A stretch of 35,189 nucleotides of DNA, from assembly GCA_012522345.1 (NCBI GenBank), contig JAAYKO010000002.1, positions 1 through 35,189 of the forward strand. The letters are read 5' to 3'. The notes beneath the pieces were generated by a model, which saw only the letters and a program-made list of their open reading frames with translations, was not told the origin of the DNA and searched no databases. The stretch is from Acholeplasmataceae bacterium (GTDB taxonomy: Bacteria > Bacillota_I > Bacilli_A > Acholeplasmatales > UBA5453). Both the position numbers and the translations under genes were made by a program. Of the stretch, positions 16,802-28,697 are shown piece after piece; the stretch's first letter is position 1; every line of letters begins with the position of its first letter.

Positions 16802-17029
16802 ATGGTAATTAATCTAAATGAGAAAGTTTATAATTTAGTTAAAGATAATGAAAAGTTAAAAGATCTTTTGTCTAAACTCGGCTTTAAAGAAATAGTTAAG
16901 CCCTTAATGTTAAAGACTGTAGGCAAAGTTATGACTTTGAAAGCTGGGGCTTCGATGAGAAAAATTGATTTATTAGATCTAATTGAGACGCTTGAAGAGA
17001 AAGGTTATAAAGTGGAGGGAAAAGAATGA
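16802..17029 (+). CDS. DUF1858 domain protein
   Basis: A 75-residue protein matching the DUF1858 family, with its LLSKLGFKEIVKPLMLKTVGK core and a C-terminal helix LLDLIETLEEKGYKVEG. In Bacillota this small domain is usually encoded beside, or fused to, DUF438/hemerythrin proteins, as here. Its stop overlaps the next start by four bases (ATGA), so the two proteins are probably made together and may act together. By association with hemerythrin and PAS domains it may belong to a redox, oxygen or nitric-oxide response, but its own biochemical role is unknown. Confidence 0.82.
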   Translation: MVINLNEKVYNLVKDNEKLKDLLSKLGFKEIVKPLMLKTVGKVMTLKAGASMRKIDLLDLIETLEEKGYKVEGKE

Positions 17030-18237
17030 GCGAATTAATTAATAATGTGTCTTTGAAAAGACAAAAAAAACTTAAAGAGATTATTTTAGGTTTACATAGA
17101 GGAGTTTCTTTAGAAGAAGCTAAAAAAGAATTTAAGGAACATTTTGAAGATGTTTCAACATATGAAATCTCACAAATCGAGCAAGCATTGATTAAAGATG
17201 GAATGAAAATCTCGGAGATTCAAAAGTTGTGTGATGTTCATGCAGCAGTTTTTGAAGGTTCGATTTCAGATATCCATAAACTATCCGATCATACTTCAAC
17301 GCCGGGTCATCCAGTTAAAGTATTTAAGGATGAAAACCAAAGAATAGTGAGATTGATTGAAGAAGAAATCGAGCCATATTTAGAAAAAACAGGTAGAACA
17401 GCTACTTTAATGTTACGAGTTGGTTATGATCGCTTAAAAGAAATTGATAAACATTACAAACGAAAAGAAATGTTAATGTTCCCAAAACTTGAAAAAGTTG
17501 GGATTACAGCCCCACCAAAAGTGATGTGGGGTGTTGATGATGAAATTAGAGATGAGATAAAAGTAATAATCGATTTGTTAAGCCAACCTAAATTTGATGA
17601 AAATAATGTTAAAGAGCTGATAAAGACTAATACGACCAAAATTAAAGATATGGTTTTTAAGGAAGATAATATTTTGTTGCCAATGTTATTAGATTATATG
17701 ACTTTTTTTGATTGGATTTTAGTCGATTCCTCTTCTTCAGAAATAGGTTATTTCTTGGAAGAGCCAAAAGAATCTTGGAAACAAGTAAAAGAAGCGGAAG
17801 AAGAGCCAGAAGAAAAAGAAATTAAAGCAGGTGAAGTAAAACTCGATGCGGGCAGCCTCTCTTTTGAACAAGTAAATCAAATCCTTAACACACTACCGCT
17901 TGATATGACTTTTGTCGATCACAATGGTCATGTAAAATATTTCACCCAAGGTAAAGAAAGAATCTTTGATCGGCCTAAAACAGTAATCGGAAGACATGTG
18001 ACCATGTGTCATCCGCCTGAGAGTGTTGATGTTGTTGAACGAATTATTGACTCGCTTCGTTCAGGTGAGAAAGATTACGAAGATTTTTGGATTCAATTTA
18101 AAAATATGTTTGTCTATATTAGATATTTTGCGGTGCGATCTAAAACAGGCGAATTTTTAGGAACTTTAGAGATTACTCAAGATATTAAGCCAATCCAAGA
18201 AATAACAGGAGAAAAACGTTTATTACGTGACAAGTAA
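17026..18237 (+). CDS. DUF438 - hemerythrin - PAS domain protein
   Basis: A 403-residue cytoplasmic protein with three parts. DUF438 covers about residues 10-75 (EIILGLHRGVSLEEAKKEF). A hemerythrin/HHE domain covers about 80-225, with His residues in HAAVFEGSI, HTSTPGHP and DKHYKRKEMLMFP that could bind a di-iron centre. After an acidic, Glu-rich linker (about 245-275), a PAS domain covers about 280-390 (LPLDMTFVDHNGHVKYF ... GTLEITQDI). This family is thought to sense oxygen, nitric oxide or redox state. No output domain (kinase, cyclase or DNA-binding) is fused, so the DUF1858 partner or an unlinked protein would take the signal. Confidence 0.88.
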   Translation: MSELINNVSLKRQKKLKEIILGLHRGVSLEEAKKEFKEHFEDVSTYEISQIEQALIKDGMKISEIQKLCDVHAAVFEGSISDIHKLSDHTSTPGHPVKVFKDENQRIVRLIEEEIEPYLEKTGRTATLMLRVGYDRLKEIDKHYKRKEMLMFPKLEKVGITAPPKVMWGVDDEIRDEIKVIIDLLSQPKFDENNVKELIKTNTTKIKDMVFKEDNILLPMLLDYMTFFDWILVDSSSSEIGYFLEEPKESWKQVKEAEEEPEEKEIKAGEVKLDAGSLSFEQVNQILNTLPLDMTFVDHNGHVKYFTQGKERIFDRPKTVIGRHVTMCHPPESVDVVERIIDSLRSGEKDYEDFWIQFKNMFVYIRYFAVRSKTGEFLGTLEITQDIKPIQEITGEKRLLRDK

Positions 18238-18303: not shown

Positions 18304-18633
18304 ATGATAAAGAGATTATTAATAGGGTTTATTTTATTATTTTCTTTAGTTGGCTGTAAAAGCGAAGAAAGCTATAGCTATATCTCAGAAATAAAAATAA
18401 CAATTGATTTAGAAAACAATGAAGTTTTAAACTACTCAGAAGAGGTAGATGTTATTTTAGAAACTGATTATATCGATGTTACAGTTACTATTACAGCAAT
18501 CAAAGACTATTATTTTCTGAGGGAAATAAAACTTTACATCAATGATGAATTAATTGATTATAAGAAATATAGTTATGCACCTAAAGAAATTATTTATGTT
18601 TACGAAGAACCAAACTGGACCAAACCATATTAA
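18304..18633 (+). CDS. Small hypothetical lipoprotein, 109 aa
   Basis: A small exported lipoprotein. The ATG at 18304 is chosen because it follows GGAGG (18294-18298) and opens directly into a signal peptide whose lipobox is LVGC (Cys18); upstream in-frame ATG codons would put extra residues before it. The mature domain of about 90 residues has alternating strand-like segments (EIKITIDLE, DVTVTITAIK, REIKLYINDELI) suggestive of a single beta-sandwich of the immunoglobulin type. The family is not recognised. A terminator hairpin overlaps its last codons. Confidence 0.72.
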   Translation: MIKRLLIGFILLFSLVGCKSEESYSYISEIKITIDLENNEVLNYSEEVDVILETDYIDVTVTITAIKDYYFLREIKLYINDELIDYKKYSYAPKEIIYVYEEPNWTKPY

Positions 18634-18683: not shown

Positions 18684-18815
18684 ATGACAAAAAAAAGCCA
18701 ATATGAAAAACCCAAAATTGAAATTATTCATTATGAAGATCAGATTAAAACCTTTAGTCAACAAACATCAATTAATATTGGTGAATGGTGGGATGACTTG
18801 TGGGGGAGTGAGTAG
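18684..18815 (+). CDS. Putative RiPP-like precursor peptide, 43 aa
   Basis: A 43-residue peptide with a GAAGGTAAGG ribosome site (18667-18676) and a clear stop at 18813-18815. The N-terminal half contains Y7-E-K-P10-K-I12, like the YxxPxL leader motif bound by RiPP recognition elements in lasso-peptide systems. The tail is short, Trp-rich and acidic (EWWDDLWGSE) with Ser42 next to last. It lies 24 bases before an HPr-kinase-like gene. In lasso clusters such kinases phosphorylate the C-terminal Ser of the precursor, so Ser42 is a plausible target. No cyclase, protease or radical-SAM gene is nearby. The RiPP role is inference, but the gene itself looks real. Confidence 0.6.
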   Translation: MTKKSQYEKPKIEIIHYEDQIKTFSQQTSINIGEWWDDLWGSE

Positions 18816-18839
18816 TTAATTTAAGAGGAGTTTAGTAAA

Positions 18840-19547
18840 ATGGCAAAATATAAGATTTGTGACTTAATCATTGAGATGAATCCGCTTTTTAATCCTTTGA
18901 AAACTCAAAGTGAGGCTTATTTAATTGCGGATGGATTTAATGTTGATCTTGATATTCCCAATCTTGAAAAACAAGTTAAACTATACCATGGAAAAAATCC
19001 TCAAATATCACTGGGAAATGCTGAATACCTTTTATATGGTTCCTATTTTTATACTCATCTAATCAATTTTCAAGGAATTTTACTACATGCTTCAGCTGTT
19101 GTTTATGAAAATCGAGCTTATTTGTTTTCAGCGCCAAGTGGTATCGGCAAATCTACACATACAGACTTATGGCTAAAAACATTTAAAGGAGCCTTTATTT
19201 TAAATGATGATAAACCAGCAATAAAACTATTTAATAATCAACTCTACGCTTATGGCACTCCATTTTCTGGTAAAACAGATTTAAATGTCAATGAAAAATA
19301 TCCAATTCAAGCTATCTGTTTTATTGAAAGAGCGGAAAACAATTGGATTAAAAAGATGTCTAAAAAAGGGGCTATAACTAATTTGTATGGCCAAACTGTT
19401 CGTTCGAAGGCGGAGGAAAGAGTTGATTTAATTTTTGAATTATTAGAAAAGATTATTGTCACAATCCCAATTTATCAGATGGGTCTAACTATTTCAAAAG
19501 AAGCAGTATTATTGGCCTATAATACAATGAGAGGCCAAAATAAATAA
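18840..19547 (+). CDS. HPr kinase/phosphorylase-like protein (candidate peptide kinase)
   Basis: A 235-residue kinase with the HprK/PEP-carboxykinase P-loop fold. ILLHASAVVYENRAYLFSAP leads into Walker A GIGKST (residues 101-106, Lys104), and LNDDKP (Asp123, Asp124) gives the second acidic motif. The N-terminal half lacks the HprK N-terminal domain, as in the HPr-kinase-like proteins of RiPP clusters (for example those that phosphorylate lasso precursors) and the ScmC type. It follows the 43-aa peptide gene with its own AAGAGGAG site (18823-18830). True HprK would be longer and stand in a different context. The next gene, an exoprotein, starts 53 bases later and could be co-transcribed. Confidence 0.78.
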   Translation: MAKYKICDLIIEMNPLFNPLKTQSEAYLIADGFNVDLDIPNLEKQVKLYHGKNPQISLGNAEYLLYGSYFYTHLINFQGILLHASAVVYENRAYLFSAPSGIGKSTHTDLWLKTFKGAFILNDDKPAIKLFNNQLYAYGTPFSGKTDLNVNEKYPIQAICFIERAENNWIKKMSKKGAITNLYGQTVRSKAEERVDLIFELLEKIIVTIPIYQMGLTISKEAVLLAYNTMRGQNK

Positions 19548-19600: not shown

Positions 19601-22600
19601 ATGAAAAAGACATTTATTTTAATTATAACTATTTTAAGTTTTGGGGTAACTTTTTTAAAAGTGAATAACGAGCAAATAATAGCTAGCGAATCTGAAAACC
19701 AGGCTCTTTTTAAAGCTGCTTGGGTATCGAGTGTAGTAGGTGAGGGAAATTATACTAGTGAAAATAATTTTAAAAACTCAATGAATTCGATTTTAGATAC
19801 ATTAGAATATTATGGTTATAACGCTTTAATTTTCCATGTTAGGACTCACAATAATGCACTTTATCCATCAGCATTAAACCCAAAAGCTAGTGTAATGTCA
19901 GGAATTAATTTTAACAGTTTTGATCCGCTTTCCTGGCTAATAGAAGCGACTCATCAAAGAGGAATTGAATTTCATGCTTGGCTTAATCCTTATCGCTTAG
20001 GTACTAATTATCTGGGGACAATGCCAACTGAAAATCCTGCCTCTAATCAAAATAATATTTTAAGCAAGAATGGAACTAGAATTTTAAATCCAGGACTTCC
20101 CAACGTTAGGCAATTTATATTTGATACAGTAAATGAAATCATTGAAAACTATGACGTTGACGCGATTCACTTTGATGATTATTTTTATATTGACCTAGGT
20201 GCTAATGGTAGCATAAGCGGTTCAAATACAATCTTAAATGAGCCCGATCAAAATACATTTATTCAATACAATAGTGGTTATAATACTTCTAGTGCGAGCG
20301 CTAAAGCAGATTGGCGACGAGAACAAGTAAATCTGCTTGTAGAAGGAGTTTATAATACAATTCAAGATTTTAATTCTGTAAACAACAAGCATGTTCAATT
20401 TGGAATATCACCAACAGGAATTTATAAAAACGGTAATGGGATTGTCAATTATGATTCAAATGGATTACCACTTACAACCGGTTCACAAACCGGAGGTCAA
20501 ACCCATTATTCGAGTTATCTTTTTGCAGATTCTCTAAAATGGATTGGTGAAGGCTGGTTAGACTATATTTTACCGCAGTCATATTGGGCTACAAATCATC
20601 CTGTAGCAGCTTATGGAAAAGTAATGGGATGGTGGGATAAAGTAGTTAAACATTTAAATGTTAATCTTTATTCTGGAATTGGTCTTTATATGAGTCTTAG
20701 TTCAACAACACACGCCTGGTATAGCGATGAGAATCAACTAAAAACTCAATTTGAAATGATTGAAGACTATGAAAATGTTTTAGGGTATAGTGTTTTTTCG
20801 TATAAACATGTTGAGATGGGAATAAACAGTTCAACATCATTGACTGGAAAGCAGATGAGTAAAGCTTATGACCAAAGGAGAAAGATGATAACCGTTTTGC
20901 CAGAATTAAAAAGCATGACTCCAATTTATTTACCAGAAGTTCAAAATGTTAGATTTGAGAATAATAAATTAAAATGGGATGCTTTAGACGGAACTAAATT
21001 TTACTATATCTACAAGTCTAGTAATCTTAGTTATTCGAATGATGAAATTGTTGGCGTTGTAAGCGGAAATGGAACTACAATAGAATACAGTATCGAACCT
21101 TCTAGCACCGAAGAATATGGAGTAAGAGCTTTGTCTTATACTAATCATTTAGGAGCAATCCCAACAAGCAATAATCAAATAAGAATGGTTGATGGCGCCT
21201 CGATTAGAACTGAAACTGAAAATGTTAGACAAGGTTTAAGGTTTTATGCAAATATCGATTCTAGTCTTTTAAATAATGAGTTTGGTTTTTATTTAATTTA
21301 CGGTAGAATAAATACTCAGACGCTAAGAAATGAGATCGTTAATCAAGGTAGCGAAAACCTAATTATTAACAATAAAAAGGTTTTTAGAAAAGCAATTTCT
21401 AATGTCAACCATAACAATCAGTTTAGCGTAGTATTAACCGGTATCCCAGAGATTGGATATTTGGATGAAATAACAGCAATCGCTTATGCTGTTGACAATG
21501 ATGAAAATATCATTCTTGCAGAAAATGCTCTTACGAGATCTGTTTTTGAAGTCGCAATTAATTCTTCTAAAGAAGGCGTTACAAATCATTCAATTGAACA
21601 AATTTTAATTTATTATACAACAAATAAAAAAAGGTTCTTTTTAAATATCTTTGATAAATATGAACTTACAAATAGTCTTTTTGAAAACAATCCCCAAATT
21701 ATCAAAGAAGATTTTATTAAAGACTGGAATGAATTTGCCCAAACCAATTTTGCTGATTTAGGGCAGGCCTCCTTTTTTAATAGTGCCAAAGAAGGGACAA
21801 CTGACAATTCAAATAATTCAGGAACAATTAAAGACATCTCAAATTTAAAAATATATCAGTTTTTTAATGGCAATTTCTATCAAGAAAAATGGGGCTGGAT
21901 TTTAGATTATTTACTGAGTGTTGATAATGTAGTTCACGTTACTAGACAAATAGAGGCGATTAAAGGAAATGGTCAAAATCAAGATTATCTTTTATATAAT
22001 GCTGAACATTTAAGTTATTCACTAGTAAATTTTTTTAAATTTGAACATCAAAGCGGTTACTACACAGCAATCGATTTTACCGAACGAAGCAAGTATCAAA
22101 CGCTTGCTCAGTTTAATGATAAAATCTATTTTAATTTAAACAATTATAATATCTATTCAATTGAACAAGAAATAACTTTACCTGCAATTGAAGAACAACC
22201 AGAAGTTGGTTATCAGTATCTTTATTATGATGGCAGCAATTATTATCATCCTAAAACACAATATTTAATAATGGGTAATTTAGAGTTTGAAATTAGACAA
22301 GTTGAAACAGAAAATAATATTACTTACCATCTTAACGGCGGCAATTTTGTTTATTCGAGTAAAGAGTTAATGGCTGAAGCCTTTTTAAAAGATTTTTATG
22401 ATTATTTAAAACCGAATGATAGTCTAAATGATTTTATGCACGGTGTTGATAAAACTAGCGGTTTTGATGGAACATGGCATGCGGTCTACCAAAATAAAAT
22501 TTATAATGGTTCGCAACCAATAGAAGTGGATGAAGCCTATTTTATTTCTACAGCTGATTATATGGAGAAATGGGCACCATTTTTTGTGATGATGAATAAT

Positions 22601-22933
22601 TTTGTCAACTACAACCCTGATCAAAATTTTTGGGGAAACACTTATGCTGGTTTGATTAGATTAAGACAATATATAGTGGGGATAAACCCAGGAGAAGCTG
22701 TTGGCATCACTCCATGGCCTGAAGCAGTGATGAATATGATGCCAACACCACTAATTGAGGCTGAACCAAAACTATTTTATGATTATTTTAGCGATTATTA
22801 TTTACCGCTACCTTATAAAGAGGGAGCAAGTTTTGCTGGCTGGTATGACAACTCAAACTTTAGCGGAGAAGCAATAACTGTAATAACTGCAGGTTCAACA
22901 GGCAATAAAACATATTACGCAAAATGGAATTAA
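19601..22933 (+). CDS. Secreted GHL10 (COG1649) glycosidase-like protein with split Listeria-Bacteroides repeat
   Basis: A 1110-residue exported protein with a signal peptide (about 30 residues). Residues 35-430 form the glycoside-hydrolase-like GHL10/YddW TIM barrel: ALIFHVRTHNNA, FHAWLNPYR (His125), DAIHFDDYFY (Asp192, Asp193), FGISPTGIYKNGNG and DYILPQSYW. An FN3-like segment follows (about 445-530), then a long region I do not recognise. At the C-terminus a beta-grasp repeat of the Flg_new/InlB type begins at YHLNGG (residue 909), is interrupted by about 160 residues and resumes at FAGWYDN (1078), ending YYAKWN. It probably acts on peptidoglycan or another glycan outside the cell. A paralogue follows. 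Confidence 0.82.
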   Translation: MKKTFILIITILSFGVTFLKVNNEQIIASESENQALFKAAWVSSVVGEGNYTSENNFKNSMNSILDTLEYYGYNALIFHVRTHNNALYPSALNPKASVMSGINFNSFDPLSWLIEATHQRGIEFHAWLNPYRLGTNYLGTMPTENPASNQNNILSKNGTRILNPGLPNVRQFIFDTVNEIIENYDVDAIHFDDYFYIDLGANGSISGSNTILNEPDQNTFIQYNSGYNTSSASAKADWRREQVNLLVEGVYNTIQDFNSVNNKHVQFGISPTGIYKNGNGIVNYDSNGLPLTTGSQTGGQTHYSSYLFADSLKWIGEGWLDYILPQSYWATNHPVAAYGKVMGWWDKVVKHLNVNLYSGIGLYMSLSSTTHAWYSDENQLKTQFEMIEDYENVLGYSVFSYKHVEMGINSSTSLTGKQMSKAYDQRRKMITVLPELKSMTPIYLPEVQNVRFENNKLKWDALDGTKFYYIYKSSNLSYSNDEIVGVVSGNGTTIEYSIEPSSTEEYGVRALSYTNHLGAIPTSNNQIRMVDGASIRTETENVRQGLRFYANIDSSLLNNEFGFYLIYGRINTQTLRNEIVNQGSENLIINNKKVFRKAISNVNHNNQFSVVLTGIPEIGYLDEITAIAYAVDNDENIILAENALTRSVFEVAINSSKEGVTNHSIEQILIYYTTNKKRFFLNIFDKYELTNSLFENNPQIIKEDFIKDWNEFAQTNFADLGQASFFNSAKEGTTDNSNNSGTIKDISNLKIYQFFNGNFYQEKWGWILDYLLSVDNVVHVTRQIEAIKGNGQNQDYLLYNAEHLSYSLVNFFKFEHQSGYYTAIDFTERSKYQTLAQFNDKIYFNLNNYNIYSIEQEITLPAIEEQPEVGYQYLYYDGSNYYHPKTQYLIMGNLEFEIRQVETENNITYHLNGGNFVYSSKELMAEAFLKDFYDYLKPNDSLNDFMHGVDKTSGFDGTWHAVYQNKIYNGSQPIEVDEAYFISTADYMEKWAPFFVMMNNFVNYNPDQNFWGNTYAGLIRLRQYIVGINPGEAVGITPWPEAVMNMMPTPLIEAEPKLFYDYFSDYYLPLPYKEGASFAGWYDNSNFSGEAITVITAGSTGNKTYYAKWN

Positions 22934-23003
22934 AACTAATTTAACAAAATGAAATAAAATTTTGTCAAGTGTTTTGTTGGTTTAAAAAAAGGAAGTGAAT
23001 AGA

Positions 23004-24491
23004 GTGAAAAAATGGAAGCTGACTTTAAAGATATTTATTATTTTGTTAACAGCTTTTTTGATAGTTGGTTGTGATAAAAAAGATCAATATGAAACCGAAA
23101 CTATTTTAGACCAAAGAGAGTTTAAAGCTGTCTGGATTTCTTCTTTTATCAATGAAGTCCCTTATGAAGACAAGGAACAATTTATAACTTATATGGAAGG
23201 TGTTTTTGAAGTGTTAGTTTATTATGGTATCAACGCTCTAATATTTCATGTAAGAACCCACAACAATGCCTTTTACCAATCAAATATAAATCCTCTGGCC
23301 AGTTGGTTTTCAACTGTTGATTTTGCTGAGTTTGATCCATTAGAATGGGTAATTGAAGAATCGCATAAAAGAGGAATTGAATTTCATGCTTGGCTTAATC
23401 CTTACCGAGTTGGAGAATATTATGTTGGTGATTATCCAAGCGAAAATCCAGCTTCTAATCCGAATAATATAATCGATGGAAAAATTCTAAATCCAGCTTT
23501 AGAAAATGTTAGACAACATCTTTATAATACTATAATTGAGCTAGTTGATAATTATGATGTTGACGCAATCCATTTTGATGATTATTTTTATATTCAAACT
23601 GATGCTAGTCCAACGAGCGCAAGTGCGCGAAGAGAAAATATAAACATTTTAATTGAAGGAATTCATAACTTATTAAAAGAATATAACAAAAACAACAATC
23701 GTTATATTCAATTTGGAATCTCACCAACTGGAATTTATAAAAATGGTAATGGTATTGTTAATTATGATCAGGATGGCAAACCTCTTACTACAGGTTCAGC
23801 AAACACGAGAGGTTTTGAGCATTATGGTAATTATTTGTATGCAGACACCGTAAAATGGATAAGTGAAGGCTGGCTTGATTATCTTATTCCACAAGTCTAT
23901 TGGGCGCGAGACACTAAGGCTGCACCTTTTGAAAGTGTGCTTTCATGGTGGGATAAAGTCGTTAAACATTTAGATATCAATCTTTATTCTGGAATTGGCG
24001 TTTACATGGCTGATGAAAATAGAGATGGGTGGGGTAGTAATACCTCAGAGTTGGATGAACAATTTAAGATTATTGAAAATAAACTTTCAAATGTTAAAGG
24101 CTATAGTATTTTTTCATATAAACATTTAAACAATGGCTACATTAATTCTAGTTTAAAAAGCGGTTATCAAATTAGAAAAGCATATCGAGATGAGATGAGA
24201 AGAAAAATAAAAGTCCCGCCAATCATCAGTTCGATGACACCAGTAATTTTGCCAGAAGTAAAAAATCTTGTTTTACAAGATGGATTTTTAAAGTGGGATG
24301 GAGTAAATGGAGCGAAGTTTTATTATATTTATGCTGCTGAAGCGTTGACTTATTCCAATAGCGAAATTGTTGCCGTTGTTTATTCAAAAGAAGCAACTGT
24401 TGAGTTTTTAATTGACAGTGAACTAGCCAATTTAGAATATGGAGTAAGAGCACTTTCTTATACAAATCATTTAAGTCCAATTTCGGATTAA
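23004..24491 (+). CDS. GHL10 (COG1649) glycosidase-like lipoprotein, tandem paralogue
   Basis: A lipoprotein of about 495 residues with lipobox IVGC (Cys23). It carries the same GHL10 barrel as its upstream neighbour, with matching FHAWLNPYR (His128) and AIHFDDYFY (Asp192, Asp193), plus the FN3-like segment ending LEYGVRALSYTNHLSPI, and then stops. It lacks the 600-residue extension and split repeat. The GTG at 23004 is chosen because AAGGAAGTG lies just upstream; an earlier GTG at 22995 overlaps that ribosome site. The pair arose by duplication, giving one membrane-anchored and one large secreted version. The substrate is unknown; bacterial relatives are linked to cell-wall glycans. Confidence 0.85.
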   Translation: MKKWKLTLKIFIILLTAFLIVGCDKKDQYETETILDQREFKAVWISSFINEVPYEDKEQFITYMEGVFEVLVYYGINALIFHVRTHNNAFYQSNINPLASWFSTVDFAEFDPLEWVIEESHKRGIEFHAWLNPYRVGEYYVGDYPSENPASNPNNIIDGKILNPALENVRQHLYNTIIELVDNYDVDAIHFDDYFYIQTDASPTSASARRENINILIEGIHNLLKEYNKNNNRYIQFGISPTGIYKNGNGIVNYDQDGKPLTTGSANTRGFEHYGNYLYADTVKWISEGWLDYLIPQVYWARDTKAAPFESVLSWWDKVVKHLDINLYSGIGVYMADENRDGWGSNTSELDEQFKIIENKLSNVKGYSIFSYKHLNNGYINSSLKSGYQIRKAYRDEMRRKIKVPPIISSMTPVILPEVKNLVLQDGFLKWDGVNGAKFYYIYAAEALTYSNSEIVAVVYSKEATVEFLIDSELANLEYGVRALSYTNHLSPISD

Positions 24492-24662: not shown

Positions 24663-25109
24663 ATGAAAAGAAAGCGAGTAGGTCAATCCTTGTTTGCAAT
24701 CGGCAATAAGCTGAGAAGAAACATCAATAAAGAACACCAAATCCATGGAATATCTGGCGGCCAATCTCGAGCCTTAAATTTTATTTATCGCATTGGCACC
24801 CATAAAGATGTTTTTCAAAAAGATATTGAAAGATTTTTATCAATTAGAAGTTCTTCTGCAACTGAACTAGTTAAAAGTTTAGTAAAAGAAGGCTTTATTA
24901 CTAAAGAAACGCTTAAGACAGACAAAAGAATGAAAAAATTAATTTTAACTGATAAAGGTATAGAAGTCGTTAAAAATACACATCAGATTTTAGATTCTAT
25001 AGAAGAGAGTTTGAAAAATGAAGTATCTAAAGAGACATTTGATCAGTTTATTGAAACACTTTCTATTTTCGAAAAAATTATTGATAGTAAGAGGATAACA
25101 GATGATTAA
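24663..25109 (+). CDS. MarR-family transcriptional regulator
   Basis: A 148-residue winged-helix repressor. The recognition-helix region reads DIERFLSIRSSSATELVKSL, and the wing reads KRMKKLILTDKGIEVV, both typical of MarR. Flanking helices (N-terminal about 1-30 and C-terminal about 115-145) would form the dimer. It is the first gene of a three-gene operon with an ABC exporter pair and overlaps the next gene by eight bases. By analogy with other MarR/exporter operons it probably represses the operon and releases it when a toxic compound binds. The dyad at 24630-24643 is the likely site. The ligand is unknown. Confidence 0.88.
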   Translation: MKRKRVGQSLFAIGNKLRRNINKEHQIHGISGGQSRALNFIYRIGTHKDVFQKDIERFLSIRSSSATELVKSLVKEGFITKETLKTDKRMKKLILTDKGIEVVKNTHQILDSIEESLKNEVSKETFDQFIETLSIFEKIIDSKRITDD

Positions 25110-26829
25110 GTTAGCAAAATATTTAAAAACTGAAAAATTAAAAACAATCGCAATTCCAATTTTTATTATTGTTGAAGTTATTGCCGAAGTTTTAATCCCT
25201 GTTTTTATTGGAAGACTAATTGACCAAGGAATTGAAGCGGGAAGAACAGATTTAATCTACCGATATGGAGCAATTATGGCAGGGCTTGCTGTAACAGCTT
25301 TATTTTTTGGCATATTCGCTTCGAGACTAGCAGCTAGTGTATCAACTGCTTTTGCGAGAAACTTACGACAAGCGCAATATGAAAATATTCAAACTTTCTC
25401 CTTTGAAAACATTGATAAATTTTCAACCTCAAGCTTAATAACAAGAATGACTTTAGATGTTTCAATGGTTCAAAACTCTTTTCGAATGTTGATTAGAATT
25501 GCTTTTAGGGCTCCGGGATTATTGGTTTTTTCAATTATTAGTTCATTTGTTGTAGCTGGAAAAATGGGCTTTATTTTTGTTTCGGTAATCCCTTTGTTGA
25601 GTTTTGGATTTTTTATTGTGATGCGGGGAGCACACAAACATTTCCGTCAAATGTTTAATAAAATAGATCATTTAAACTTAGTTATTCAAGAAGACTTATC
25701 AGGTATTAGAACAATCAAATCATACGTTAGAGAAGAACATGAAATTGCTAAATTTGATTATGCGGCAACTGAAGTCGCTCAAAATGCAATCAGGGCAGAG
25801 AAATGGATTATTTTTAATAATCCAATTTTACAATTTTCTGCTGGTCTTAGTTTCGCTTTAATCGGTTGGTTTGGATCCTACAACATGATTTATCACGGCT
25901 TTACAAAAGGACAATTTACTAATGTAATAACTTATGTTATGCAGGTTTTATTTAGTTTAATGATGATTTCAAACGTGTTTTTATTTTTTGTAATTTCAAA
26001 AGCGGCAGTTGATCGAATTACCGAAGTTTTAGATGAGAAGACAACTCTTGGTGAAAAAGAAGAGGCAATCGAGATTGTAAAAGATGGTTCAGTAGAATTT
26101 AGGAATGCTTGTTTTAAATATCAAGAGAGTGAATCGAAGATGGTCCTCAATAATATTAATTTAAAAATTCCTTCAGGAGCTTTTGTTGGAGTTTTTGGTG
26201 GAACTGGAACCGGTAAGACTTCACTTGTCCAACTTATTCCTCGCCTATATGATGTCAATAGAGGTCAGGTTTTAGTCGGTGGCGTTGATGTTAGAGATTA
26301 TAAAATAAACGCAGTAAGAGAAGCGGTTATGTTAGTATTACAAAAAAATGTGCTTTTTTCAGGAACGCTAAGAGATAATATTAAATACGGTAAAGCTGAT
26401 GCAACCGATGAAGAAATTATTGATGTTTTGAAAAAAGCACAGGCATATAATTTTGTCTCAAAATGGGAAAAAGGACTTGATACTTGGATTGAACAAGGTG
26501 GAGTCAATGTCTCTGGTGGTCAACGTCAAAGGCTAACTATTGCAAGAGCACTTATCGCTAATCCAAAAGTTTTAATTTTAGATGACTCAACAAGTGCAGT
26601 TGATACTAAAACTGATGCTTTAATTCGCGAGATGTTAAGAAATGAAAAACCTGAAATGACAAAAATTGTTGTTTCTCAGCGAATTGCTTCAATCGAAAAT
26701 GCAGATTTAATTGTAATTTTAGATGATGATGGTATTAATGCGATTGGAGACCATCAAAAGCTTTACAAAACTAATCAAATCTATCAAAGCGTTTATGATG
26801 CTCAAAAGAAGGGGGTCAACAACCAATGA
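25102..26829 (+). CDS. Heterodimeric ABC exporter subunit with degenerate ATP site
   Basis: A 575-residue ABC exporter half-transporter: six membrane helices (about residues 1-310) and a nucleotide-binding domain (about 335-565). Walker A is GGTGTGKTS (Lys372) and the signature is VSGGQ (471-474). The catalytic Glu after Walker B is replaced by Asp495 (LILDDS) and the H-loop His by Gln526 (VVSQR). These changes are the hallmark of the non-catalytic partner in heterodimeric exporters such as TM287/288 and BmrCD. Together with the next subunit it would have one active and one degenerate ATP site. It probably exports drugs, lipids or peptides. The start overlaps the marR end. Confidence 0.9.
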   Translation: MIKLAKYLKTEKLKTIAIPIFIIVEVIAEVLIPVFIGRLIDQGIEAGRTDLIYRYGAIMAGLAVTALFFGIFASRLAASVSTAFARNLRQAQYENIQTFSFENIDKFSTSSLITRMTLDVSMVQNSFRMLIRIAFRAPGLLVFSIISSFVVAGKMGFIFVSVIPLLSFGFFIVMRGAHKHFRQMFNKIDHLNLVIQEDLSGIRTIKSYVREEHEIAKFDYAATEVAQNAIRAEKWIIFNNPILQFSAGLSFALIGWFGSYNMIYHGFTKGQFTNVITYVMQVLFSLMMISNVFLFFVISKAAVDRITEVLDEKTTLGEKEEAIEIVKDGSVEFRNACFKYQESESKMVLNNINLKIPSGAFVGVFGGTGTGKTSLVQLIPRLYDVNRGQVLVGGVDVRDYKINAVREAVMLVLQKNVLFSGTLRDNIKYGKADATDEEIIDVLKKAQAYNFVSKWEKGLDTWIEQGGVNVSGGQRQRLTIARALIANPKVLILDDSTSAVDTKTDALIREMLRNEKPEMTKIVVSQRIASIENADLIVILDDDGINAIGDHQKLYKTNQIYQSVYDAQKKGVNNQ

Positions 26830-28697
26830 TGCGAAGAGGGATGCCTAAAGGAGCTCATTTTAAAGCTCGCAAAGGGACATTTTTAAGATTAGTCCGCTTT
26901 GTTTTAGAAAAACATAAAATTAGAATTATTATTGTCATTTTAGCGATGGCTCTTTCAACTTTGACTAATATTGGCGCAACTTCAATTATTCAGCAAATAG
27001 TTAAGGAAACAAGCGCGATGATAGAAATTGGCAGTACCGATTTTACGCCTATTATCAAACTAATAGCTGCAATGTCAGGTTTATATTTGTTAAGTATTTT
27101 ACTGACCTATCTCCATTTAAGAATTATGATTGATGTTGGTCAGGAATCTTTGCTTAGATTAAGAGAGACAATGTTTGTCCATATGACAAAGTTACCCATA
27201 AAATATTTTGACGAACATCAACATGGCGATTTGATGAGCGTTTTTACTAATGATGTCAATGCCACAAGACAGATGATTTCACAAAGTCTACCTCAACTAG
27301 CAATCGCGACATTTACTATTTTAGGATATTTAATTGCGATGTTTATCTTTTCTTATATTCTCTCATTTTTCATGATTGCAGTTGGAATTTTATTAATTTT
27401 TACAAGTAAAAAAGTGACATCTTCAACAAGAGTTCTTTATCGCCAACAACAAATGGCTTTAGGAAAAGTTAATGGTTATATTGAAGAGATGGTAGAAGGT
27501 CAAAAAGTTGTTAAAGTTTTCCGTTATGAACAACAAGCAGTTAAAAACTTTGAAAAATTAAATCATGATTTATTTATTCAAGCAGAAAAAGCAGGCAAAA
27601 AAATTGGTGTCTTAGTTCCTTTTACCATTAACATAGGTTACTTAGCTTATGTTGTAGTTGCAATTTTAGGAAGCTATTTAATTTCAATTAATCATATGAC
27701 TATTCCACAATTAATCGTCTTTTTGTTATTTACAAGAAGTTTTGTTGGCCCCTTTAACCGGCTTTCAAATCAAATGGATTTTATTGGGCTCGCTACTGCG
27801 GGGGCGGATAGAATCTTTAGAATTTTAGAAGAAGAAATTGAAACTGACCAAGGTCAATATGAATTAGTCGATGCCGAATACAAAGATGACAAACTTGTAA
27901 AAAGTGAAACTGAAACAGGCCTGTTAGCTTGGTATAATTCAGAAACAAATCATTTAGTTAAGTTGTGTGGAGATGTTAGGTTTGATAATGTCAGCTTTGG
28001 TTATCGCGAAAATGTTCCAGTCTTAAAAGATGTCTCCCTTTACGCCAAACCTAACCAAAAAATCGCCTTTGTAGGTGCTACTGGGGCAGGTAAAACAACT
28101 ATCGCAAATTTAATTAACCGCTTTTATGATATTAAAGAAGGCGAGATTAGTTTTGATGGAATAGACATTAAAGAGATTAAAAAACATGATTTAAGAAAAG
28201 TCATCGCAGTAGTTTTACAAGACACTAGTTTATTTACAACAACAGTTATGGAAAACATTCGTTACGGAAATTTGAACGCTACTGATGAAGATGTTTATCA
28301 GGCGGCCAAAAGAGCTAATGCTCATGAGTTTATTTTAAAATTGCCAGAAGGATATAACACAGTAATCGCTCATGACGGCGAAAATCTTTCCCAAGGTCAA
28401 CGTCAGCTTCTTTCAATCGCCAGAGCTGCAATTGCGGATGTTCCGGTCTTAATTTTAGATGAAGCAACCTCTTCAGTTGATACTCATACTGAAAAATTAA
28501 TTCAAGATGGGATGGATCAACTAATGAAGGGTAAAACAGTTTTTGTTATTGCGCACCGGCTCTCAACAATTCAAAACTCAAACGCAATAATTGTTTTAGA
28601 AAATGGAGAAATCATTGAACGTGGCGACCATGATGAGTTGATAGACTATCGCGGTAAATATTATCAACTCTATACAGGATTGTTTGAATTTGAATGA
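26826..28697 (+). CDS. Heterodimeric ABC exporter subunit with catalytic ATP site
   Basis: A 623-residue half-transporter, the partner of the preceding gene (ATGA overlap). After a basic N-terminal extension come six membrane helices and a nucleotide-binding domain with Walker A GATGAGKTT (Lys423), catalytic Glu546 (LILDEATSSVD) and His577 (IAHRLST). Its signature is LSQGQ (521-525) rather than LSGGQ, so the second, degenerate site combines this motif with the altered Walker B of the partner. A linker insert of about 40 residues before the nucleotide domain (around 345-385) is typical of the longer subunit of such pairs. The substrate is not evident; the MarR context suggests detoxification. 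Confidence 0.92.
   Translation: MMRRGMPKGAHFKARKGTFLRLVRFVLEKHKIRIIIVILAMALSTLTNIGATSIIQQIVKETSAMIEIGSTDFTPIIKLIAAMSGLYLLSILLTYLHLRIMIDVGQESLLRLRETMFVHMTKLPIKYFDEHQHGDLMSVFTNDVNATRQMISQSLPQLAIATFTILGYLIAMFIFSYILSFFMIAVGILLIFTSKKVTSSTRVLYRQQQMALGKVNGYIEEMVEGQKVVKVFRYEQQAVKNFEKLNHDLFIQAEKAGKKIGVLVPFTINIGYLAYVVVAILGSYLISINHMTIPQLIVFLLFTRSFVGPFNRLSNQMDFIGLATAGADRIFRILEEEIETDQGQYELVDAEYKDDKLVKSETETGLLAWYNSETNHLVKLCGDVRFDNVSFGYRENVPVLKDVSLYAKPNQKIAFVGATGAGKTTIANLINRFYDIKEGEISFDGIDIKEIKKHDLRKVIAVVLQDTSLFTTTVMENIRYGNLNATDEDVYQAAKRANAHEFILKLPEGYNTVIAHDGENLSQGQRQLLSIARAAIADVPVLILDEATSSVDTHTEKLIQDGMDQLMKGKTVFVIAHRLSTIQNSNAIIVLENGEIIERGDHDELIDYRGKYYQLYTGLFEFE

Follow-up and report, generated by a model that had tools for sequence, protein, structure and literature searches.

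What does a gene for a peptide of only 43 residues do in front of a kinase gene? In the window, by which we mean the whole 35,189-nucleotide stretch of Acholeplasmataceae DNA that was analysed, a 43-residue ORF on the forward strand (18684-18815; MTKKSQYEKPKIEIIHYEDQIKTFSQQTSINIGEWWDDLWGSE) carries a Y7xxP10xI12 motif and a Trp-rich acidic tail, and a gap of 24 bp separates it from a 235-residue kinase ORF on the same strand (18840-19547). A preliminary description of this DNA gave the coordinates and length of the peptide, the motif, the tail and the gap exactly, and read the pair as a minimal two-gene RiPP-like system. The RiPP-like precursor with a YxxPx[I/L] leader is supported by the work reported here; the minimal system is not, the pair being better seen as half of a split one. 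Since the gene set matches that of the Linear Polyphosphorylated Peptides (LPP), a split LPP-type RiPP system is the reading that fits the pair best, and we consider it probable that the two genes are the precursor (LppA-like) and the kinase (LppK-like) of such a pathway divided over two loci.

Judged by its sequence relatives, the 43-residue ORF is more than a product of chance. In G011, a genome of another genus, a peptide (MEKQYEKPTIEIIVFEDEIETANEGSINVGEWWEE) that is 60% identical to the window peptide lies directly 5' of a kinase that is 57% identical to the window kinase, a conserved pair of the kind that the preliminary description had proposed to search for; an A. laidlawii-type orthologue of the window peptide reads MIKTVETKKRAYECPVIEVVKFEENVRTGSEGSANVSDWWFEV. 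With the window and G011 peptides left out, a profile still recovers the window ORF (E 0.0035, among 10,820 ORFs), as does one made from the peptides of Clostridia and other Bacilli alone (E 0.016); the match of the window leader to the family profile is one of the weaker ones. Using a seed profile of 21 peptides we obtained 41 small-ORF matches at E<0.01 in the fetched loci and 0 among shuffled ORFs, a count that is partly circular because the seeds were drawn from the same loci; the profile and its shuffled control replaced a loose Y..P pattern scan, which chance ORFs had swamped. No peptide model in Pfam or NCBIfam matches the window peptide. Amino-acid conservation is found at both of its ends, in the RRE-binding motif, the Ser that follows the leader and the Trp tail. 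The predicted RRE-binding motif Y7-E-K-P10-K-I12 (codons at 18702-18719, forward strand) has its like in the other Acholeplasmatales precursors and sits in a predicted leader that runs from M1 to about T23 (18684-18752, forward strand), the cleavage site being placed to within about 1 residue from the spacing in LppA. Trp is common in the ends of the relatives, as in the acidic tail GEWWDDLWGSE of the window peptide (codons 33-43, 18780-18812, forward strand), and falls within the last 9 residues in 26 of the 28 distinct Acholeplasmatales precursors.

The second gene of the pair encodes a predicted HprK-fold peptide kinase, LppK-like and of a short clade according to its fold model, alignment and tree. 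Its P-loop SAPSGIGKST (kinase residues 97-106; 19128-19157, forward strand) is mostly invariant in the kinase alignment, its Walker-B-like NDDKP (residues 122-126; 19203-19217, forward strand) is invariant in 31 kinases, and the catalytic core is invariant across the 31 aligned sequences. An AlphaFold2 model built on 31 relatives (mean pLDDT 94.6) matched HPr kinase/phosphorylases best in a fold search of the PDB (E 2e-6, probability 1.00), with L. casei HprK/P as the best single match and PEP carboxykinases next in rank, as this fold class predicts. It was the fold search that settled the class, a sequence search of the PDB with the kinase profile having returned P-loop noise only. No Pfam or NCBIfam model exceeded its cut-off for the window kinase; the ScmC/HprK-related models of NCBIfam matched it weakly and below cut-off, ScmC best (E 7.8e-7), and its 28.7 bits compare with the 125 bits of the ScmC equivalog. 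The HprK-like identity given in the preliminary description is therefore borne out by the predicted fold, with sub-threshold matches beside it. The fold and the P-loop/DD catalytic core are those of HprK/P, but identity to HprK/P is about 15%, and kinases of the window type sit in peptide gene clusters, often beside an RRE. The orthologue in the congener G001 is 55% identical.

The system with which the pair compares best is LPP, encoded by lppAKBSDN of Paenibacillus alginolyticus (Popov et al., Nat Commun 2026; PMC13381572). As reported there, the YxxP leader, whose motif LppA needs in order to be recognised, is bound by the RRE LppB; LppK adds several phosphates to Ser3 of the LppA core, the leader is cut by the SipW-like peptidase LppS, and LppN serves as NTP transferase and LppD as exporter. 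With LPP the window shares a precursor of 35-200 residues with a YxxPx[V/L/I] leader (here 43 residues and Y7EKPKI12), an HprK-like kinase gene beside it, recognised by fold and motifs, and a Ser at a distance of 18 residues from the leader Tyr. In the window itself, of which selected proteins were run against the family libraries, no maturation gene was recognised. The source genome (assembly of 1.34 Mb, 88.8% complete) has exactly one PqqD-type RRE over cut-off (PF05402, E 2.2e-14), on contig C2 and unlinked to the window pair, in the gene order kinase - RRE - SipW-like peptidase - NTP_transf_5. The nucleotidyltransferase, the counterpart of LppN, matches PF14907 (NTP_transf_5) at E 1.5e-40, the peptidase has weak TIGR02228/Peptidase_S24 matches below cut-off, and a second precursor (MKEKQIYQKPHLEIVEMNNEESFAAGSSLTGSSFWGTLGSEEIWGED) lies 6 kb further along; a profile search of the genome for precursors returned these two precursors, from the window and C2, and in addition a single weak match that falls within a long ORF. 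The C2 RRE is a discrete PqqD-like protein with equivalents of the Tyr/Pro-contacting LppB residues N33, D70 and F74, among them the Tyr-selecting Asp; Asn and Phe are present in 17 of 17 RREs and Asp in 16, with a correspondence drawn from motif spacing as LppB itself is outside the alignment. Likewise, the C2 peptidase is of the SipW-like SpI type, and the Ser/His/Asp triad of LppS, matched by motif, is kept in 15 of 15 peptidases. Maturation enzymes encoded elsewhere, which the preliminary description had allowed for, were thus found where a search of the genome for an RRE/PqqD protein and a dedicated protease had been suggested.

An exporter is less readily assigned. No MsbA-like exporter (LppD) adjoins the window pair or lies in the C2 cluster, and the search of the incomplete genome gave no specific LppD-type exporter, its best matches having 24-27% identity to generic ABC proteins. 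The window has an ABC pair of its own at 25102-28697, which was rejected as a candidate exporter since at 24-34% identity it looks generic. LppD-type exporters are present in the relatives L023, L024, L027, L029 and L146.

The window pair is part of a conserved type of locus. Its first gene encodes a small lipoprotein-like product (MIKRLLIGFILLFSLVGCKS..., 18304-18633, forward strand), G011 (L020), G013 (L142) and G014 (L144) likewise have a lipoprotein gene before the peptide, and the order lipoprotein - WW peptide - (exoprotein) - kinase - GHL10 recurs across Acholeplasmatales. Directly 5' of the locus in the window, at 16802-18237, are genes for a DUF1858 protein and a DUF438/hemerythrin/PAS protein, tied to it by position only. 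In the kinase tree the window kinase falls in a supported clade of six (96/87) together with those of G001, G011, G013, G014 and G017. A GHL10-like gene lies 3' of the kinase in all six, and a WW- or WF-tailed peptide is found in the kinase operon in five, the window included; the sixth contig ends upstream. The preliminary description had staked its reading on such a conserved small ORF beside the kinase orthologues. In the congener G001 the kinase of the GHL10 locus is the only kinase found and the RRE, peptidase and nucleotidyltransferase lie elsewhere; where a peptide would precede this kinase there is an exoprotein and the end of the contig, and as the order in G013, G014 and G017 puts the peptide upstream of the exoprotein, G001 is not counted against the pairing.

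Arrangements in the relatives bear on how the parts may work together. The operon of G011 holds peptide, kinase, PqqD gene (the RRE) and a signal-peptidase-like gene together. The GHL10 loci of G013, G014 and G017 have no RRE, and the single RRE of each of these genomes lies near a long kinase. G001, G013, G014 and G017 thus share the split of the window genome, so that the use of one RRE in trans would recur. In other relatives the kinase is fused, either to the PqqD-type RRE (L023:6293-7381, L024:6739-7830, L027:6150-7244 and L028:6385-7476, in genomes G004, G006, G007 and G008) or to the SipW-like peptidase (L142:7057-8166 and L144:7036-8139, in G013 and G014). Such fusions suggest, at the level of sequence, that kinase and RRE, and kinase and peptidase, work together, and with the splits they argue that the three may form one machine, acting in trans where needed. 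A long-clade kinase ORF in G011 (L030:5926-6786, contig C4) is broken by an in-frame TGA and is either a pseudogene or a sequencing error. Two further clusters (L035:4656-9423 and L036:6995-13006) hold two HprK-like kinases, an RRE, an NTP transferase, a SipW-like peptidase, a radical SAM protein with a weak SPASM match and a YxxP precursor whose core has Cys (...GIAESLLSGENLVCIEELE); their product is possibly a combined phospho- and radical-SAM-modified peptide.

From LPP as described, the window system also departs in several respects. The full leader consensus YxxPxVLxHQxIxFETxxS is not matched, only its YxxP part and the Ser spacing being in agreement: the window group has IEIxxF[ED]E..[IV]xT where LppA has VLxHQxIxFET. 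This departure is shared by the whole Acholeplasmatales/Clostridia group and therefore marks a subfamily. The core is about 20 residues with a Trp tail, compared with 45 residues in LPP, the genes are split over two loci with no LppD in either, fusions of the kinase with RRE or peptidase occur among the relatives, the lineage is Acholeplasmatales, and the genomic association is with exoproteins instead of capsule loci. The system of the window pair is best called a new subfamily.

Where the kinase would act on the peptide can be predicted from LppA. Ser42, named as the acceptor in the preliminary description, is a natural guess but the wrong one and is corrected here: its position is not conserved, most relatives have no C-terminal Ser, and the characterised relative is phosphorylated just after its leader. 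In LppA the cut falls after T-1, at 15 residues from the Tyr (PMC13381572), and it is this spacing that puts the predicted end of the window leader at about T23. Ser25 (18756-18758, forward strand) is 18 residues from Y7, the same distance as that of LppA Ser3 from its Tyr, and among 41 peptides a Ser lies at offset 19 from the leader Tyr in 29 and at offset 18 in 6. The G011 orthologue has Asn at the position of Ser25, so Ser29 (18768-18770, forward strand), which aligns with Ser26 of the G011 peptide, stays as second candidate. On these alignments and spacings, the acceptor is probably Ser25, with Ser29 as second choice.

The link to GHL10 exoproteins, in which the preliminary description had seen a hint of a cell-envelope role, proved to be real and conserved; the role itself is no more than a possibility. 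The window kinase is followed on the forward strand by a gene for a 1110-residue GHL10 (PF02638) secreted exoprotein, a conserved neighbour (19601-22933; Pfam E 2.4e-44), and a second for a 498-residue lipoprotein-like GHL10 exoprotein (22995-24491; Pfam E 3.8e-36). More widely, a gene for an exported protein lies directly 3' of the precursor, often overlapping it, for 21 of the 28 distinct Acholeplasmatales precursors, when coupling is defined as same strand, -90 to +60 bp and an exported protein of at least 150 residues, with signal peptides called by a simple hydropathy rule. The background in the same loci is 19 of 339 genes (5.6%), and the binomial p is about 4e-21 with loci treated as independent, though the genomes are related. 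Among the uncoupled precursors are cases of exoproteins truncated at locus ends (L129, L154) and a probable misassigned start codon (L027); the window and G011 peptides have the kinase next on their 3' side, not an exoprotein. In the wider set with Clostridia, an exported gene of at least 200 residues lies on one side of 27 of 41 peptides, and such genes make up 14% of all genes. Four precursors of G002 (L126, L132, L135, L139) have nearly the same core (SFFGTLGSEEIWGE) and different large exoprotein genes nearby, three directly 5' of the exoprotein gene and one with it 158 bp on; no kinase or RRE was found in G002. A shared N-terminal stretch of the type F.[FYW]W.VNG..R.DL is seen in the exoprotein at L003:14784-17987 and in those after the peptides in L023, L024, L026, L126 and L135, and some exoproteins of this type carry Endonuclease I and lamin-tail domains. 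The genomic association suggests that the peptides serve secreted proteins.

These data also bear on other explanations of the pair. The one that deserves most attention, unlikely as it is, takes the peptide as unprocessed: as a leader peptide or short upstream ORF it would regulate, through translational coupling, the expression of the genes behind it, and the kinase would serve the C2 precursor only. It would account for the way in which the peptide ORF of the relatives runs into, or right up to, the start codon of the exoprotein (21 of 28), but not for the conservation of both peptide ends, nor for the nearly identical cores that stand before different exoproteins in L126, L132, L135 and L139. 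We regard it as very unlikely that peptide and kinase suffice by themselves as a stand-alone phosphopeptide system, with no RRE and no removal of a leader: they are the only adjoining biosynthetic genes in the window, yet the genome has exactly one RRE over cut-off with an LPP-type peptidase beside it, the operon of G011 joins all four genes, and relatives fuse the kinase to the RRE or the peptidase.

A paeninodin-kind lasso peptide, threaded and phosphorylated on its C-terminal Ser, would share the HprK-like kinase, RRE and nucleotidyltransferase that form the tailoring set of paeninodin clusters, and its cyclase and B2 peptidase would have to be encoded elsewhere. Neither Transglut_core3 (B2) nor Asn_synthase (the cyclase) was found in the 88.8%-complete genome, whereas both models were positive in control genomes; the leader has Tyr (YxxP) where paeninodin leaders have Trp (WxxP), core positions 7-9 offer no acidic residue for a ring, and the C-terminal Ser is not conserved, all of which makes such a product highly improbable. 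The lack of a macrolactam cyclase acting on the precursor is again a property of LPP, and the phosphopeptide formed without macrocyclisation that the preliminary description had proposed agrees with the linear form demonstrated in that related system (PMC13381572). There is similarly little to recommend a radical-SAM-modified peptide of the SynChlorMet kind, in which an HprK-related kinase (ScmC) and a PqqD protein (ScmD) are accompanied by the radical SAM proteins ScmE/F. ScmC is the best, if sub-threshold, NCBIfam match of the kinase, and the relatives L035 and L036 have a radical SAM gene in their two-kinase clusters; but neither the neighbours of the window pair nor the C2 cluster showed a radical SAM gene, the L035 enzyme as query gave 0 matches in the genome (a weak negative, from a single query with no positive control), and the window core has no Cys.

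The reading of the pair as half of a split LPP-type pathway accommodates the gene content and its conservation, the predicted fold, the catalytic and binding residues and the locus architecture, all of which are observed. The chemistry that we infer for the source organism by homology would begin with the pairing of the YEKPKIEI leader with the single PqqD-type RRE from C2. The HprK-fold kinase would then add at least one phosphate to a Ser just after the leader, and the SipW-like Ser/His/Asp peptidase of C2 would cut the leader near K22/T23; RRE pairing, phosphorylation and leader cleavage have been shown in a relative (PMC13381572). The nucleotidyltransferase may add to the phosphate, and the linear core of about 20 residues, acidic and Trp-tailed, would after a presumed export act with or on co-encoded secreted proteins such as the GHL10 glycosidase-like exoproteins. 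It could also be that the window precursor duplicates the role of the one on C2, or that it goes unprocessed.

New with respect to LPP are the kinase-RRE and kinase-peptidase fusions, the near-universal C-terminal Trp and the coupling of precursor and exoprotein genes (21 of 28 against 5.6%). LPP was described in 2026 without a known function or an identified final product, and the main text of that paper notes capsule loci and mentions neither exoproteins nor Acholeplasma or Acholeplasmatales (PMC13381572). We tentatively propose, as a possibility that is well short of probable, that in Acholeplasmatales, and with the gene order reversed in Clostridia, each LPP-type phosphopeptide is the dedicated partner of a large secreted exoprotein: the precursor would be co-translated with its exoprotein, one shared set of kinase, RRE and peptidase would mature them all, and the Trp-tailed phosphopeptide would bind, anchor or control the exoprotein. 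If true, this would give the LPP family its first function. With its defined Trp-tailed core and its strong genomic link to secreted proteins, the split form of LPP found in Acholeplasmatales makes the question of what such phosphopeptides do a testable one.
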